NCBI GenBank assembly: GCA_007693855.1
Contig: RECU01000041.1
Coordinates: forward strand, 1-54,892
Origin: Gammaproteobacteria bacterium
GTDB taxonomy: Bacteria > Pseudomonadota > Gammaproteobacteria > Steroidobacterales > PWYM01
Reading direction: 5' to 3'
DNA length: 54,892 nt
Shown here: positions 3,647 through 54,892 of the stretch, one piece after another
Position numbering within the stretch: the stretch's first letter is position 1
Layout: every line of letters begins with the position of its first letter
Made by a program: the position numbers and the translations under genes
The notes under the pieces: model-generated
What the model saw: only the letters and a program-made list of their open reading frames with translations
Database searches by the model: none
What the model was told of the DNA's origin: nothing

Positions 3647-4837
3647 ATGAGCATTTCGCTTCGTAACTCGTTGGTTCCACTGGCAGCCCTCGCGCTGCTG
3701 GCCGGCTGCTCCGGGGAACCCACGACGTCCACGCCGATCAATACGGCCGGCGCAGCGGATTCGTCCAATGGTTTCGAGCCGCGTGAACTGCGCAGTGAGT
3801 ATCACCGCCTGAACGTCGCGCGCGTCGCCGGCGGCCTGTCGCATCCCTGGGGGCTGGCCTTTCTGCCGGATGGCGACTATCTCGTGACCGAGCGCACGGG
3901 TGACCTGCTGCGTATCAGCCCGGACGGCAGCCGCCAGCGCATCGAAGGCGTGCCGGAGGTGGCCGCGTTCCGCCAGGGGGGGCTGCTGGACGTGATCCTG
4001 CATCCGCAGTTCAGCGAGAACGGCTGGGTGTATCTCAGTTACTCGCGTGGTGACAGCGAGCTGACCACCACCGCGGTCGTACGCGGCCGGCTCGAGGACA
4101 ACCGCCTGGTCGACGTCGAGGATATCTTCGAGCAGGACCGGCGCTCCGAGCCAGGGCGCCACTATGGTTCGCGTTTCGCCTGGATGGCGGACGGTACCCT
4201 GCTGGTCTCGATTGGCGATCGCGGTGCCGAGCCGCCGCGTGCCCAGGATCTCGGCGATCACGCGGGCACGGTGCTGCGTCTGCACGCCGACGGCAGCGTG
4301 CCTGAAGACAACCCCTTCGTCGGCCATGAGGGCGCGCTGCCCGAAATCTGGGCCTACGGCTCGCGCAACATCCAGGGGATGGTGATCGATCCGGTCAGCG
4401 GCAAGGTCTGGGCGACCGAACATGGCCCGCGCGGGGGTGACGAACTGAACCTGATCGAGCCGGGTAACAACTACGGCTGGCCGGACGCCGGCCTCGGCCG
4501 CGACTACCGCACCGAGGAACAGTACGGTGAGGCGCGCAGTCTCCCCGGCATGGTGGATCCGATCTACGAGATCCTGCCGACGCTGGGGCCATCAGGGCTC
4601 GCGCTGGTCACCAGCGACCGGTTCCCGCGCTGGCAGGGCAACCTGCTGGCCGGTGGCCTGCGCGCCGAGCGCCTGCGCCGGCTGGTGATCGAGAACGACG
4701 TGGTGGTCCATGACGAGGAACTGCTGACGTTCGAGGTGGGGCGTATTCGCGATGTGCGCGAAGGGCCGGACGGCGCGATCTACGTGCTCACCGACCACGA
4801 CGACGGCGGCCTCTATCGCGTGGACATCGCCGACTGA
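3647..4837 (+). CDS. PQQ-dependent aldose-sugar dehydrogenase-like lipoprotein
   Basis: A 396-residue beta-propeller of the soluble glucose/aldose dehydrogenase (GSDH, YliI/Asd-like) family, which oxidises sugars with pyrroloquinoline quinone. Signs are GLSHPWGLAFLPDGDYLVTE at the start of the propeller, GLLDVILHPQFSENGWVYLS, GSRNIQGMVIDPVSGKVWAT, EHGPRGGDELNLIEPGNNYG and the C-terminal IRDVREGPDGAIYVLTD. Residues 1-22 are a signal peptide ending in a lipobox (LLAGC), so it should be a periplasm-facing lipoprotein. The ATG at 3647 has an AGGGAG ribosome site. Its last 25 bases overlap the 3' end of the opposing HD gene. The real substrate is unknown. Confidence 0.88.
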   Translation: MSISLRNSLVPLAALALLAGCSGEPTTSTPINTAGAADSSNGFEPRELRSEYHRLNVARVAGGLSHPWGLAFLPDGDYLVTERTGDLLRISPDGSRQRIEGVPEVAAFRQGGLLDVILHPQFSENGWVYLSYSRGDSELTTTAVVRGRLEDNRLVDVEDIFEQDRRSEPGRHYGSRFAWMADGTLLVSIGDRGAEPPRAQDLGDHAGTVLRLHADGSVPEDNPFVGHEGALPEIWAYGSRNIQGMVIDPVSGKVWATEHGPRGGDELNLIEPGNNYGWPDAGLGRDYRTEEQYGEARSLPGMVDPIYEILPTLGPSGLALVTSDRFPRWQGNLLAGGLRAERLRRLVIENDVVVHDEELLTFEVGRIRDVREGPDGAIYVLTDHDDGGLYRVDIAD

Positions 4838-49112: not shown

Positions 49113-50017
49113 TGACGACACCTGCCGGGCGCGCCACGGCGATCGATGGCGGTGAGGTCGGCGGGCAGGTACGGGAACTTTGCGCCGCCGATGGCTATCG
49201 CCTCGGCGCACGGTTTTTTCCGGCGGCTGAACATGAGCGTGGCCGGCTGGTGGTGGCCGCTGCCACCGCCGTGCCGCAGGGATTCTACGCCCGCTTTGCC
49301 CGTTATGCCGCCGCGCGTGGCTTCAGTACGCTGACGTTCGACTACCGGGGGACCGGTGCCTCCCGCCCGGACCGCCTGCGGGGGTTTGCGGCGAGCTTTC
49401 TCGACTGGGCTGAACTCGATCTCGCCGCCGCCGTGGCGGCGATGCAGGGCGGCAAGGGGCCTGTGCTGGTGGTCGGCCACTCCTTCGGCGGCCAGGCCTA
49501 CGGCCTGCTGCCAAACCCCGACCAGGTGCAGGGTCTCTACACCTTCGGCACGGGCGCCGGCTGGCACGGCTGGATGCCAAGGCTGGAATCGCTGAGGGTC
49601 CGCGCCCTGTGGCACGTGGTCATTCCGGTGCTCACCCGCAGCCGTGGCTATCTGCCCATGTCCTGGGCGGGCATGGGCGAGGACCTGCCCCTGGGCGTGG
49701 CTCGGCAGTGGCGGCGCTGGTGCAGCTTTCCCCGGTATTTTTTCGATGATCCCGAGCTTGCCGATGCCATGCACGCACGCTTCAGCGCCGTGCGCACCCC
49801 GGTTGTGGCGGCCAATGCGCTGGACGATCGCTGGATTCCGCCGCCCGCCCGCGAGGCCTTCATGGCCGGCTACCAGCAGGCCCCTTACCGGGCTGTGGAC
49901 ATCGATCCCGCGCCCTACGGTGGGCTGGGACACATGGGCTATTTCCGCGCGCGGGCCGAGCCGTTGTGGTGCGATGTGATCGACTGGGCGGGCGCGTTGG
50001 CCGGAGATGCGCGCTGA
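49112..50017 (+). CDS. alpha/beta hydrolase (serine aminopeptidase S33-like)
   Basis: A 301-residue alpha/beta hydrolase. The nucleophile elbow is VLVVGHSFGGQAYGL; the acid is probably in VVAANALDDRWIPPPAREAF and the histidine in YGGLGHMGYFR. FSTLTFDYRGTGASRPDRLR is the usual strand before the nucleophile. No signal peptide is seen. Substrate unknown: esterase, lipase or peptidase are all possible. The ATG shares one base with the dcp stop, so both are probably translated together. Confidence 0.82.
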   Translation: MTTPAGRATAIDGGEVGGQVRELCAADGYRLGARFFPAAEHERGRLVVAAATAVPQGFYARFARYAAARGFSTLTFDYRGTGASRPDRLRGFAASFLDWAELDLAAAVAAMQGGKGPVLVVGHSFGGQAYGLLPNPDQVQGLYTFGTGAGWHGWMPRLESLRVRALWHVVIPVLTRSRGYLPMSWAGMGEDLPLGVARQWRRWCSFPRYFFDDPELADAMHARFSAVRTPVVAANALDDRWIPPPAREAFMAGYQQAPYRAVDIDPAPYGGLGHMGYFRARAEPLWCDVIDWAGALAGDAR

Positions 50018-50048
50018 CCCCGCCCGGAAGGCTTGGCCACCGCGGGCG

Positions 50049-50768
50049 TCAGTCCTGCCAGCCCGCCTCATCGCAGAGATACAGCACCGTGCCTTCCGGG
50101 GCTTCCAGCATGCCCAGACAGTGCGCCAGCGTCTGACGACGGCCCGGCCGGCGCACCGGGTGGCCGTCGCGCAGCAGTGCCTCGATGCGGCCCGCCATAT
50201 CATCCTCGTAGAAGGCGAGGCCCGGGAGCACGGTCGCGCTCTCGTGCAGGCCGAGGCTGATCTCGCTCCCCGTGAAGCGCGACCACGGCTGGGGGGTCTC
50301 CCCCTGCCAGCCCTCCATCAGGCCCAGCGCATCCCAGAAGCGCCGCGCGGCGGCGAGATCGTGGGTGGGCAGCACGTAGTCGCCAAAGAACCCCAGACGA
50401 GAGCGCACGGGATCGCCTGGCGGCGGGGAGTAGGTGCGCGCCTCGACCAGCAGCACCGGGCCACCGTCCGTGTCGCGCAGCAGTACGCGGTTCAGGCTGT
50501 CGGCATCGAGCTGGGCCTCCTCGGCGCGCAGGCCCAGGCGTGCGAGCTCGCGGTGCCAGGCGCGCAGCCCCGTGTGCACGAATACCGGGGTGATGTCCTC
50601 GAACACACCCCCGTGCAGCCCCAGCAGCAGCCGGCCGTCGGAGACGACCGCGTAGCTGTGGCCCCAGGTTTCACCGACCCGCGCCTGGGTGAACCCCAAG
50701 GTCTCATAGAAGGCCAGTGAAGCCTGGATGTCGGGGGCCGGCACGGCCAGTTCGAGGAATCGCTGCAT
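50049..50768 (-). CDS. VOC (glyoxalase-fold) protein with two modules
   Basis: A 239-residue protein with two vicinal-oxygen-chelate halves. The first starts RFLELAVPAPDIQASLAFYE and ends near LLRDTDGGPVLLVEA. The second begins DYVLPTHDLAAARRFWDALG and ends EAPEGTVLYLCDEAGW. The spacing matches glyoxalase/dioxygenase relatives, but metal ligands are not all evident and the substrate is unknown. It lies 39 bases after hemH on the same strand and is convergent with the hydrolase gene (31-base gap). Confidence 0.78.
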   Translation of the reverse strand: MQRFLELAVPAPDIQASLAFYETLGFTQARVGETWGHSYAVVSDGRLLLGLHGGVFEDITPVFVHTGLRAWHRELARLGLRAEEAQLDADSLNRVLLRDTDGGPVLLVEARTYSPPPGDPVRSRLGFFGDYVLPTHDLAAARRFWDALGLMEGWQGETPQPWSRFTGSEISLGLHESATVLPGLAFYEDDMAGRIEALLRDGHPVRRPGRRQTLAHCLGMLEAPEGTVLYLCDEAGWQD

Positions 50769-50807
50769 GGCCCGGTCCCTCCTGCGCGCCGCGCCTGCGG
50801 CCTTGAC

Positions 50808-51917
50808 TCAGCGTGGCGCGCCCATCTCCAGAGCGCGTTCGCGACTGGCCTGGGCATCGGCCTCCCGGGCCGTCTCATCATACTGCGCCGAGGCTTCTGG
50901 CCAGCCGGCGACATGCCGTCGTGCCAGGGTGGCCAGCAGGGCGATGTGGTCCGCGCCGTCATTGAGCGCCGGGATGTAGCGCAGGGTGCCGCCGCCGTGC
51001 TCCGCGAACCGCTCGGCGTTTTCCATCGCAATCTCCTCGAGCGTCTCCAGACAGTCGGCGGCAAAGCCCGGACAGACCACGTCGATATCCCCCAGTCCGT
51101 CGGCGCCCCACTGCTCCAGTGTCTCGTCGGTATAGGGACGCAGCCATTCCTCGCGGCCCACCCGCGACTGGAAGGCGACGTGCCACTGGTCCTGCGCCAG
51201 GCCCAGGCGCTCGGCCACCTGCCGGGCCGTCTTGTGGCATTGGCAGTGATAGGGATCGCCATTGAGGAGGTAGCGGCGCGGGATGCCGTGGAAGGAGAAC
51301 AGCAGCCGTTCGCCGCGGCCGTGCGTCTGCCAGTGTTGCTCGATCCGCGAGGCCAGTGCCTCTATGTACAGCGGCTCGTCATGATAGGTGGTGATGAAGC
51401 GCAGCTCCGGCAGCCAGCGTGTCCGCATCAGACAACTCGCCAGCCGATCGAACACCGAACCGGTGGTGGTGGCGCTGTACTGGGGGTAGAGCGGCAGCAC
51501 CAGCAGGCGCCGACAGCCGGCTTCGCGCAGCGTCGCCAGCGCGCTGGCGATGGAGGGATTGCCGTAGGTCATGCCCACGGCCACGCGTACCGGGCCGGGC
51601 AGGGCGGTGGCGAGCTCCTGCTCAAGCCGCTCGGCCACGCGCCGGGTGTAGACCAGCAGCGGCGAGCCCTCGTCGGTCCAGACCTCGCGATAGGCGCGGG
51701 CGGACCGGCGCGGCCGGATGTTCAGGATCACCAGGTTCAGAATCGCCCACCACAGTGGCCGGGGCAGCTCGATGATCCGCGGGTCCCACAGGAACTCCTT
51801 CAGGTATCGGCGTACCGGTCCGGGTTCCGGCGCATCAGGGGTACCCAGGTTGACCACCAGCACACCTAGCCGCTCGGGGCTGCCGTGGTGGTAGTCCTTC
51901 TCGCCCAGATAGGTCAT
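50808..51917 (-). CDS. hemH: ferrochelatase
   Basis: A 369-residue ferrochelatase that inserts Fe2+ into protoporphyrin IX. Evidence: GVLVVNLGTPDAPEPGPVRR, VGMTYGNPSIASALATL, LPLYPQYSATTTGSVFD, the catalytic histidine in LLFSFHGIPRRYLLNGDPYH, AFQSRVGREEWLRPYTDETL and VVCPGFAADCLETLEEIAME. ATG at 51917 follows GAGGGCAAGG; an in-frame ATG at 51929 is possible. It precedes the VOC gene and diverges from the cupin gene. Confidence 0.95.
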   Translation of the reverse strand: MTYLGEKDYHHGSPERLGVLVVNLGTPDAPEPGPVRRYLKEFLWDPRIIELPRPLWWAILNLVILNIRPRRSARAYREVWTDEGSPLLVYTRRVAERLEQELATALPGPVRVAVGMTYGNPSIASALATLREAGCRRLLVLPLYPQYSATTTGSVFDRLASCLMRTRWLPELRFITTYHDEPLYIEALASRIEQHWQTHGRGERLLFSFHGIPRRYLLNGDPYHCQCHKTARQVAERLGLAQDQWHVAFQSRVGREEWLRPYTDETLEQWGADGLGDIDVVCPGFAADCLETLEEIAMENAERFAEHGGGTLRYIPALNDGADHIALLATLARRHVAGWPEASAQYDETAREADAQASRERALEMGAPR

Positions 51918-52014
51918 CCTTGCCCTCATCCGTCATGCCTGTCCAGCAGGCATCATACTGCTTCGCCGGGCGGCTTTGTCTGCCCGGCGCTCTGAACCCT
52001 TCGCGAGGATGCGT

Positions 52015-52377
52015 ATGCCCAGACTGATCGAGGCGCCGGCGCTGGTCGAGGCCGCCGGCACCAAGCCGAAGAAGATCGAGGAGTTCGTCGGCCGGGTGAA
52101 CACCGGCACGGCCGAGGTCAGCATCGCCCGCATGACCAGCCCCCAGGGCTGGCTCGAGCCGGCGCAGACGCCCGCGTTCGACGAGTACACCGTGGTGCTC
52201 ACGGGAATGCTGCGCGTGGAGTGCAACGGCGAGCTCATCGACGTTCAGGCCGGCCAGGCGGTGCTGGTTGCCGCCGGCGAGACGGTGCGCTACAGCACGC
52301 CCGCACCGGGCGGTGCGCACTACCTCGCCGTCTGCCTGCCGGCGTTCTCGCCAGAGACCGTCCACCGCGAGGCCTGA
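52015..52377 (+). CDS. cupin-domain protein
   Basis: A 120-residue single cupin barrel: TAEVSIARMTSPQGWLEPAQ, PAFDEYTVVLTGMLRVECNG, ELIDVQAGQAVLVAAGETVR, YSTPAPGGAHYLAVCLPAFS. The metal-binding histidines of classical cupins are largely missing (only an acidic EYT site remains), so a binding rather than catalytic role is possible. The start at 52015 has GAGG seven bases upstream. It heads a four-gene rightward cluster. Confidence 0.78.
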   Translation: MPRLIEAPALVEAAGTKPKKIEEFVGRVNTGTAEVSIARMTSPQGWLEPAQTPAFDEYTVVLTGMLRVECNGELIDVQAGQAVLVAAGETVRYSTPAPGGAHYLAVCLPAFSPETVHREA

Positions 52378-52389
52378 GGGCGCGGCGCC

Positions 52390-52785
52390 ATGACACTCGA
52401 CCCGCTGCTCCTCAGCCGGGTGCTGGTGGTCATTCACTTTGCGTTCCTGATGTTCGTGATCTTCGGCGGCTTTCTGGTGATGTGGCGTCTGTGGATCGCC
52501 TGGCTGCATATCCCGTGCGCGGCGTGGGGGGTGATGATCGTGGCGTTTGGCTGGATCTGCCCGCTCACGCCACTGGAGAACCGCTTCCGCGCCGAGGCCG
52601 GTCTTGCCGCCTATGAGGGCGGCTTCATCGAGACCTACCTGCTGGCGGTGATCTACCCCCCGGGGCTGACCCGCGAACTCCAGATCATTCTTGCGGCAGC
52701 GCTGGCGCTGCTTCTGGTGTTGCAGTACGGTGGCGCGTGGTGGCTGCATCGGCGCCGCCAGGCACGAGCGAGGGAACGCACGTGA
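52390..52785 (+). CDS. DUF2784 membrane protein
   Basis: A 131-residue protein with three or four membrane helices (VLVVIHFAFLMFVIFGGFLV, LHIPCAAWGVMIVAFGW, IILAAALALLLVLQYGGAWW) and the DUF2784 signature ICPLTPLENRFRAEAGLAAY followed by GGFIETYLLAVIYPPGL. Function unknown. It begins 12 bases after the cupin gene, and its stop overlaps the GTG of the next membrane gene. Confidence 0.85.
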   Translation: MTLDPLLLSRVLVVIHFAFLMFVIFGGFLVMWRLWIAWLHIPCAAWGVMIVAFGWICPLTPLENRFRAEAGLAAYEGGFIETYLLAVIYPPGLTRELQIILAAALALLLVLQYGGAWWLHRRRQARARERT

Positions 52786-53195
52786 TCGCACTCGGACTGG
52801 CCCTGTCCATCTTCGGAATTTTCGTGGCGCTGACGGCGATCATGGTCGTGTTCATGGGCACTGAGGGCGCGGCCGTGCCTGCGCTGCTGTCGCCATTGGT
52901 GCTGGGCCTGCCCGCCGTGGTGCTGGTGGCGGTCGCCGTCCTCCGCCGCCACCGCCACCTCGGCGGTCCACTCGCCGCTCTGCGTGCCTGCCCCGGCTGG
53001 CTGATTGCCGCCCTGGCGCTGCTGATGGCCGTGGTGCTGATCGCGGTCCTGGCGATCTGGCTGGCGATCCACTTCAGCGGCGAGCCGCTGCCGCCCCGCT
53101 TCCATCTGCCGGTGCTCGCGCTGGCCGCATTCGTGCTGACCACGGGCCTGTTCTCGGGCCTGATCCAGCTCAAACAACGACAGGACTACGCATGA
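52782..53195 (+). CDS. hypothetical four-span membrane protein
   Basis: A 137-residue protein with about four hydrophobic helices (ALGLALSIFGIFVALTAIMV, LSPLVLGLPAVVLVAVAVL, WLIAALALLMAVVLIAVLAI, LPVLALAAFVLTTGLFSGLI). No family recognised. GTG at 52782 overlaps the DUF2784 stop (GTGA), and its own stop overlaps the DUF427 start (ATGA), so the three are a coupled unit. Confidence 0.65.
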   Translation: MIALGLALSIFGIFVALTAIMVVFMGTEGAAVPALLSPLVLGLPAVVLVAVAVLRRHRHLGGPLAALRACPGWLIAALALLMAVVLIAVLAIWLAIHFSGEPLPPRFHLPVLALAAFVLTTGLFSGLIQLKQRQDYA

Positions 53196-53737
53196 GCCTT
53201 CATCCCCCCGACAGGTTGCGGCGGCTGCTCAGTGCCGGCCTGAAGCCCGACGAGGTGCCAGTGCCCGGCCCCGGGCAGGTCTCGGTATGGGACTATCTAC
53301 GCCCGCCGAAGCTGGTGCCTGAGCCGCGGCGCTTGCGCGTGCAGTTCGCCGGGCAGGTGATCGCCGATACTGCTGAAGGTCTGCAACTTTGCGAGACCGC
53401 CAGCCCGCCCACGTATTATTTCCCGCCGCAGGCCATCGCCGCGGGCGTGCTCGAACCCAGCCGGCACCGCAGCTTGTGCGAATGGAAGGGCCAGGCACGC
53501 TACTTCGATGTGGTGGTGGGCGGTGCCCGCGCACCGAATGCCGCCTGGTGCTACCCGGGTGCCCGTGCGCCGTTCGAGGCCCTCGCCGGCTGGCTCGCCT
53601 TCATGCCCGGCATGATGGAGGCGTGCTACGTCGACGAGGAACAGGCCCGGCCTCAGCCCGGCGGGTTCTACGGTGGCTGGATCACCGATGAGCTGACGGG
53701 GCCGTTCAAGGGAGAGCCGGGGACCCTGCACTGGTAG
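53192..53737 (+). CDS. DUF427 domain protein
   Basis: A 181-residue DUF427 protein. Seen: RRLRVQFAGQVIADTAEGLQ, ASPPTYYFPPQAIAAGVLEP, HRSLCEWKGQARYFDVVVGG, NAAWCYPGARAPFEALAGWL and FMPGMMEACYVDEEQARPQP. Members form a small beta-barrel whose role is not established. The short C-terminal extension ends in GGWITDELTGPFKGEPGTLH. It ends 10 bases before the convergent integron integrase gene, leaving no room for an intrinsic terminator. Confidence 0.85.
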   Translation: MSLHPPDRLRRLLSAGLKPDEVPVPGPGQVSVWDYLRPPKLVPEPRRLRVQFAGQVIADTAEGLQLCETASPPTYYFPPQAIAAGVLEPSRHRSLCEWKGQARYFDVVVGGARAPNAAWCYPGARAPFEALAGWLAFMPGMMEACYVDEEQARPQPGGFYGGWITDELTGPFKGEPGTLHW

Positions 53738-53747
53738 CCTTAACCGC

Positions 53748-54707
53748 TCAGTCTAGGGGGCTGCGCACGCCACGACCGCCGCGATTGAGGACATGGGTGT
53801 AAATCATGGTGGTGGACACGTCGGTATGCCCAAGCAGTTCCTGCACCGTACGGATGTCGTAGCCCGCCTCGAGCAGGTGCGTGGCGAAGCAATGCCGTAA
53901 GGTGTGGCACGATACGGGCTTCGCGATGCCGGCCGCCCGCACGGCTCGCTTTACGGCCCTCTGGATGCCGTCTGGCATGACGTGATGTCGTATCGGCAGG
54001 CCGGTATAGGGTGAGCGACACAGTTTTCTTGCCGGGAAAACGAACTGCCACGGCCACTGACGCGGTGCCTGCGGATACTTTCGGGCCAGCGCGAAGGGCA
54101 GCGACACGCCGGGCTGGTGTTCTTCCAGGTCTTTCTCATGGAGCAGCTTTACCCGGCTCAGCTGGGTACGCAGCGGTGCTTCCATCGACTGCGGCAGGAC
54201 CGTGCGACGATCCTTGTGGCCCTTTCCGTCGCGCACGGTGATCTCGCCGTAACCGAAGTCGATATCCTTTACCCGGAGACGGAGACACTCCGTGACCCGG
54301 AGCCCGGCCCCGTAGAGCAGTCCGCCGATCAGTGCATGCACACCTTCCAGGTTCGCAAGTACCCGCGCGACCTCATCACGCGTGAGCACGACTGGGAGTT
54401 TCTCTGGCCGCTTGGCACGTACCAGATCGTCCAGCCACGGCAGCTCCACCGCCAGTACGTCCCGGTAGAGGAACAGGATGGCCGCCAGCGCCTGATTCTG
54501 CGTTGACGCGGCCACCTTCCTCTCCGTCGCCAGATGATTCAGGAAGGCCTGAACTTCCGGTCCGGACATTTCGCGAGGGTGCCTGCCTTTGTGGTGGCCA
54601 ATGAAACGTCGTATCCAGCCGAGATAGGCCTGCTCGGTACGATAGCTGTAATGTTTGACGCGAATACGCTCCCGCACTGCGTCAACCAGCCGACGTTTTC
54701 GCTGCAT
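53748..54707 (-). CDS. intI: integron integrase, tyrosine recombinase
   Basis: A 319-residue integron integrase. The core-binding domain ([20 protein letters not shown]) precedes the catalytic domain with R137 in [21 protein letters not shown]268 and R271 in [21 protein letters not shown]294 in [14 protein letters not shown] and nucleophile Y303. The integron-specific insert lies between patches II and III (residues about 190-238; [20 protein letters not shown]). It captures and excises cassettes at attI/attC sites. All catalytic residues are intact, so it may be active. A cassette array, if present, lies beyond the right edge. Confidence 0.95.
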
Positions 54708-54713
54708 AACACC

Positions 54714-54760
54714 ACCACATCCTTGTGTGGTATATCAAATGCCGCGATCAGGTTATTCAA
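54714..54760 (-). promoter_or_regulatory. putative intI promoter and leader hairpin
   Basis: On the minus strand TTGAAT (54760 to 54755) and TGATAT (54737 to 54732) are separated by 17 bases and could drive intI. Directly downstream an inverted repeat, ACCACA-N6-TGTGGT (54714-54731), carries AAGGA, the best ribosome site, in its loop, 13 bases from the ATG. The hairpin could affect start or translation. No clear LexA box (CTGT-N8-ACAG) was found. Confidence 0.35.
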
Positions 54761-54837
54761 AGCGTTCCGGATGTCTCAACCGTCTTATCCCGCAAAAGTG
54801 CAGCAAAACATCACGGCGTTTCGGCCGTCTAATTGTA

Positions 54838-54844
54838 GTTAGCT
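54838..54844 (+). other. possible attI core recombination site
   Basis: GTTAGCT, reading rightwards, resembles the GTTRRRY core where cassettes are inserted, with one deviating base. It lies 131 bases upstream of the intI start and points away from it, as attI does. The window ends 48 bases later, so the first attC cannot be seen. Confidence 0.35.
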
Positions 54845-54892
54845 TTCAGGGTGCTTGCATTGCACGCAGTGCCACTTTAGTATCACTGTATG

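Follow-up and report, generated by a model that had tools for sequence, protein, structure and literature searches.

A contig-end integrase best read as the platform of a toxin–antitoxin-rich sedentary chromosomal integron in a gammaproteobacterial genome

Introduction

Integrons capture, store, and reshuffle gene cassettes. An integrase gene that lies close to the end of a contig raises the question of whether it belongs to an integron with a cassette array, and of where that array would begin. The window analyzed here is a stretch of 54,892 nucleotides that makes up one entire contig (C79) of a gammaproteobacterial genome (G000; 3.28 Mb in 114 contigs), so that the rest of the array is lost at the assembly break. 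We compared it with genus-mates (G001, G002, and G004, and reportedly also G003), and our reading, to which we give a probability of roughly 0.93, is that the end of the window is one half, the platform, of a sedentary chromosomal integron, with an array that would continue through the assembly gap, most likely to a second contig (C52).

Results

An intact integron integrase in a conserved chromosomal place

53192-53737, plus strand: DUF427 gene beside intI, chromosomal flank (PF04248, 104.9 bits)
53748-54707, minus strand: intI, integron integrase of 319 amino acids in an intact frame (TIGR02249, catalytic residues, match to 2a3v)

The preliminary description of this DNA had claimed an intact integron integrase with its catalytic residues and the integron-specific insert, and all three points are confirmed: the frame scores 477.4 bits against the TIGR02249 integron integrase model (cut-off 265), the catalytic residues R137, H268, R271, H294, and Y303 are in place at those numbers (5/5), and the alignment to the closest solved relative, 2a3v (308.3 bits; a structure we take to be VchIntIA of Vibrio cholerae), spans residues 10 to 318 with one single-residue gap and covers the integron-specific stretch. 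The XerC (143.7 bits) and XerD (139.9 bits) models also match, as they would if this were a Xer-type or phage tyrosine recombinase instead, but both scores are far under those models' own cut-offs and weaker than that of the integron model. The XerA, XerC, and XerD matches are each split into two pieces, as expected with the integron insert, and integron arrays adjoin the nearest relatives of IntI; we give a Xer or phage identity next to no credence.

Among 55 integrases placed in a tree, that of the window pairs with that of G004 (99/81; 95% identity over the 222 residues present in G004), and the pair is joined by G001 (100/99) and then by G058 and G027 (98/92). The integrase of G003, which is reportedly of the same genus, groups with those of Nitrococcus mobilis and another gammaproteobacterium (98/89), which means that vertical inheritance does not account for all integrases of the genus.

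The genes left of intI are DUF427, DUF2784, and ferrochelatase, and the rightmost 4.8 kb of the window, including the DUF427 gene and intI, matches contig C79 of G001 at 83%. The neighbors of the locus are syntenic with those in G001 on either side and, on the far side, where an amino-acid permease gene lies (see below), also with those in G004. By gene order, the locus shares its chromosomal place with related genomes, as a sedentary chromosomal integron should. A mobile integron, recently brought into G000 on a transposon or plasmid, could have its second boundary in the part hidden by the contig end, and the clade of the G003 integrase makes platform exchange within the genus possible; against this, the 4.8 kb to the left and the permease flank both keep their synteny with G001, and G000, G004, and G001 have integrases of a single clade, making a recent arrival extremely unlikely.

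The attI site and its crossover point

54788-54838, plus strand: attI left half, conserved in the genus
54829-54842, plus strand: inverted repeat CTAA-N5-GTTAG, candidate simple site for IntI binding
54838-54844, plus strand: attI core GTTAGCT, crossover 54838/54839, where similarity breaks in relatives

A GTTAGCT core upstream of intI, with cassettes to its right, had been put forward as the attI candidate. Its position and orientation are borne out, but the 7-base core alone is at chance level: it agrees with GTTRRRY, a motif already known (PMC10127599), at 6/7 positions with one mismatch, and matches of that quality number 873 in the window versus a mean of 884 in shuffles. The repeat CTAA-N5-GTTAG has its sole copy in the window here and none in 100 shuffles, for a pattern picked post hoc, after the site had been seen.

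The decisive evidence for the attI is the comparison with relatives. Over 51 gap-free bases to the left of and including G54838, the window is identical to G001 at 46, to contig C1 of G004 at 49, and to contig C217 of G002 at 44 positions; over the 54 bases to the right, the corresponding counts are 51, 15, and 17, and with gaps freely allowed the last two become 30/46 and 28/51 aligned bases. The left halves are alike in all three and the right halves differ in two of them, which places the crossover at G54838/T54839 (G|TTA). The right half of the window recurs in G004 away from that genome's attI, on contig C13, at 41/52 aligned bases with gaps (16/54 without gaps, the lengths being different), with 13/51 identical on the left side. 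As judged from these alignments, the four genomes show three different sequences to the right of one attI, and an attI adjoining intI with a G|TT crossover, as is characteristic of integrons, is seen in the conserved left half and differing right halves. Different cassettes at one attI in related genomes show past recombination activity.

No match to Rfam was found at gathering thresholds in 50000-54892. A consensus promoter scan of 54600-54892, covering the canonical promoter type, found no promoter for intI or the cassettes, and a cassette 1 promoter made of TTGCAT/TAGTAT hexamers was rejected as unsupported by that scan. LexA control of intI was likewise unsupported: CTG-N10-CAG does not occur in 54501-54892, nor does CTGT-N8-ACAG in 54001-54892. 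A short inverted repeat, CCACA ... TGTGG (54715-54730), lies just before the intI start codon, is kept in G001 and G004, and could affect intI translation. Within the attI region, a terminator-like hairpin on the minus strand (54813-54828; 1 found versus 0.3 expected) is conserved in G001.

The first cassette at the contig end

54839-54892, plus strand: start of cassette 1 (54 bases), with the leader of a Phd/ParE-type toxin–antitoxin module, cut by the contig end
54890-54892, plus strand: predicted ATG of the cassette 1 antitoxin gene, from G001 and contig C13 of G004

The preliminary description had an array of unknown genes starting just right of 54892. The array is real as far as it is visible, but its start lies at 54838/54839, 54 bases inside the window. 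In G001 (L026, PWZL01000017.1), the aligned ATG opens MRTELVTTLKRKATDLLSELAK (translated by eye), in a reading frame that is Phd-like antitoxin, and then that contig ends too. The homologous unit on contig C13 of G004, where the aligned ATG opens MRTELVTT as it does in G001, carries genes for an 85-aa PhdYeFM antitoxin (49.1 bits) and a 105-aa ParE toxin (72.1 bits). The remainder of cassette 1 was not found in the G000 assembly in a search with the Phd/ParE cassette.

A model of attC sites

A strict pattern for attC (RYYYAAC ... GTTRRRY, 6/7 or more paired) was rejected, as it missed most true sites. A relaxed pattern, applied to 80 loci, gave 79 candidates on the array strand and 62 on the other upstream of intI (264 kb), and 14 and 10, respectively, downstream (661 kb); it matches on both strands because attC sites are near-palindromes. 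From the 79 candidates, 59 were kept by length, with two removed by hand, and 8 longer sites were added for a total of 67, of which 50 were retained for the model, MAFFT having misplaced some long sites. The resulting model (50 sites, 69 positions, 20 pairs) gives rough E-values, and its pairing is satisfied in 86.3% of cells, versus 69.3% in shuffled sequences and 22-48% with partners slid, for a structure drawn on the same alignment. Two sites left out of training (L106:4203-4300 and L109:11836-11933) are still recovered.

In 67 chosen integrase loci, the model finds 172 sites at E <= 0.01 in 50 loci (48 training and 124 non-training), every one of them upstream of intI and in array orientation; among the 17 loci with no site at this threshold, at least 8 had short flanking sequence. 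The window, used as a control, has a best match of only 11.7 bits (E 3). A whole-genome search of G000 scored 150 of 4479 first-look candidates and may have missed other attC sites.

Cassette arrays in the genus-mates

Contig C1 of G004 starts within intI and continues through the array, which begins at the same attI as in the window, on the same contig as intI, with attC sites in array orientation. It holds about 6 cassettes, encoding first HigB with an HTH protein, Unstab_antitox with ParE, and DUF433 with DUF5615 (presumably a toxin–antitoxin pair), and later a GNAT, an open reading frame of no family with ParE, and a second GNAT. With filters off, four attC sites are found in L106:1454-4300, two of them training sites of the model (48.8 and 43.4 bits) and two not (39.1 and 23.2 bits); the search found none between the first GNAT and the next pair and none after the last GNAT. 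Beyond the array lie a CYTH gene and then the amino-acid permease on the opposite strand.

In G001, whose record we take to be from a soda lake, contig C61 carries the permease (90%), the CYTH gene, attC sites (35.9 and 22.9 bits), a gene of the choloylglycine-hydrolase family, and a HigB/HTH pair. The choloylglycine-hydrolase-family protein (L131:9857-10984; PF02275, 231 bits), at 375 aa, is large for this array and is encoded between the two attC sites. On contig C217 of G002 (L132:3086-3552), the conserved attI half precedes one cassette, after which an attC begins at the contig end, and this attI half has a DUF222 gene as its left neighbor; no integrase was found in the G002 genome at E <= 1e-60.

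The preliminary description had named two outcomes that would speak against an array, namely no attC to the right and the same integrase in relatives without cassettes, and neither is seen in the closest relatives, G004 and G001. Its expectation of unknown genes was partly right; the majority of visible cassettes are toxin–antitoxin pairs and GNATs.

The probable far end of the array

The permease ortholog of G000 (92%) sits on contig C52 (5364 bp), where the order from the contig end to the permease is half an attC, HicA (40.5 bits), HicB (53.9 bits), a whole attC, a GNAT gene, CYTH, and the permease. The whole attC (4672-4767) scores 20.0 bits (E 0.0004, filters off), and the half site, truncated where the contig stops, 15.0 bits (E 0.1; unlisted with filters off). 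These sites were unlisted in the whole-genome search and were found later on C52 itself. These are low scores, and taken alone the half site would be unconvincing, but position, strand, and gene content agree in suggesting an array end, and C52 is probably the far end of the window's array. The order C79, array, C52 is inferred because intI, array, and permease lie on one contig in G004. Searches of G000 for the missing middle cassettes found none, whether the query was the end of the window, the end of C52, the Phd/ParE cassette, or a motif from the attC loop, and the assembly holds no sequence joining C79 and C52.

These data also bear on an In0-like state, in which the intact integrase and attI would be followed by a fixed neighboring gene with no cassettes left at the locus. 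The array is hidden by the contig end, and the near-equal first 54 bases in the window and G001 are what a fixed neighbor would give; yet G004 and G002 carry other sequence at the same attI, the same first unit occurs elsewhere in G004, and attC sites are present on C52, so we consider the In0-like state very unlikely.

A decayed second integron and cassettes at other sites

G000 contains a second, decayed integron on contig C55 (53271-55050; L108:5710-7500), in which a HigBA cassette and a RelE/HTH pair are closed by two attC sites (43.3 and 36.0 bits), and the integrase is reduced to an N-terminus of about 35-50 residues. The HigBA cassette is 81% identical to contig C1 of G004 over L106:798-1549, in a match bounded by the attI core and the attC end; the attI left halves of the two loci differ (20/51 identical).

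In G004, the Phd/ParE cassette on contig C13 (L134:7373-8009) lies inside a methyltransferase gene that G000 (C57) and G001 (C77) carry without interruption. Beside it, ~100 bases of the host gene are gone and the attC is reduced to its first half, as if the cassette had been captured at a secondary GTT site and had then decayed. Cassettes at secondary sites are already known (PMC10127599).

The presence of HigBA in both G004 and the decayed integron of G000, and of Phd/ParE both at the live attI and inside the G004 methyltransferase gene, raises the possibility that in this genus one integron activity moves a small pool of toxin–antitoxin cassettes among live attI, decayed integron, and off-target chromosomal sites, and that outside the integron this pool outlasts even the loss of intI; we regard this as speculative and rather doubtful.

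Discussion

The locus is best read, from sequence comparison, as a toxin–antitoxin-rich sedentary chromosomal integron. The site that IntI would bind is attI (about 54788-54844), whose G|TT it would recombine with the bottom strand of a folded attC, so that new cassettes would enter at 54838/54839, facing right. The current first cassette would be a Phd/ParE-type toxin–antitoxin module, of which the leader and start codon alone are assembled, and the array would run through the assembly gap most likely to C52, with its HicAB cassette, acetyltransferase gene, and conserved CYTH/amino-acid-permease flank. We infer that IntI is active at present, that cassettes join C79 to C52, and that the toxin–antitoxin cassettes stabilize the array.

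Comparison alone can suffice to assign an integrase stranded at the end of a contig to an integron, and the crossover base can be read from genomes with different cassettes at one attI. The locus adds a chromosomal integron rich in toxin–antitoxin cassettes from a gammaproteobacterial genus that is represented here by draft genomes, and assembly breaks of this kind may hide many arrays in metagenome-assembled genomes. Judged by titles and the starts of abstracts, the literature retrieved on integrons in soda-lake metagenome-assembled genomes held none on this topic.

The locus resembles the sedentary chromosomal integron of V. cholerae in integrase fold and length, in the divergent layout of intI and array, and in its toxin–antitoxin cassettes (PMC11023631); unlike in V. 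cholerae, the array is apparently small (about 6 cassettes in G004), the attC sites are 60-100 bases long, and a LexA box was not found in the regions searched. The V. cholerae toxin–antitoxin cassettes have their own promoters and make excision costly (PMC11023631), and by analogy those found here may play a similar role. The decayed integron on C55 is similar to a CALIN (an attC cluster without an integrase), with its two attC sites, two toxin–antitoxin cassettes, and integrase N-terminus only; the window locus differs from a CALIN in its intact integrase. In Xanthomonas, an ancestral integron platform with lineage-specific integrase loss is described (PMC12444791), and the locus resembles those integrons in occupying one chromosomal place in related genomes, with variable cassettes and some integrase loss, and differs in its flanks, which are DUF427 and CYTH/permease here and ilvD in Xanthomonas (PMC12444791).
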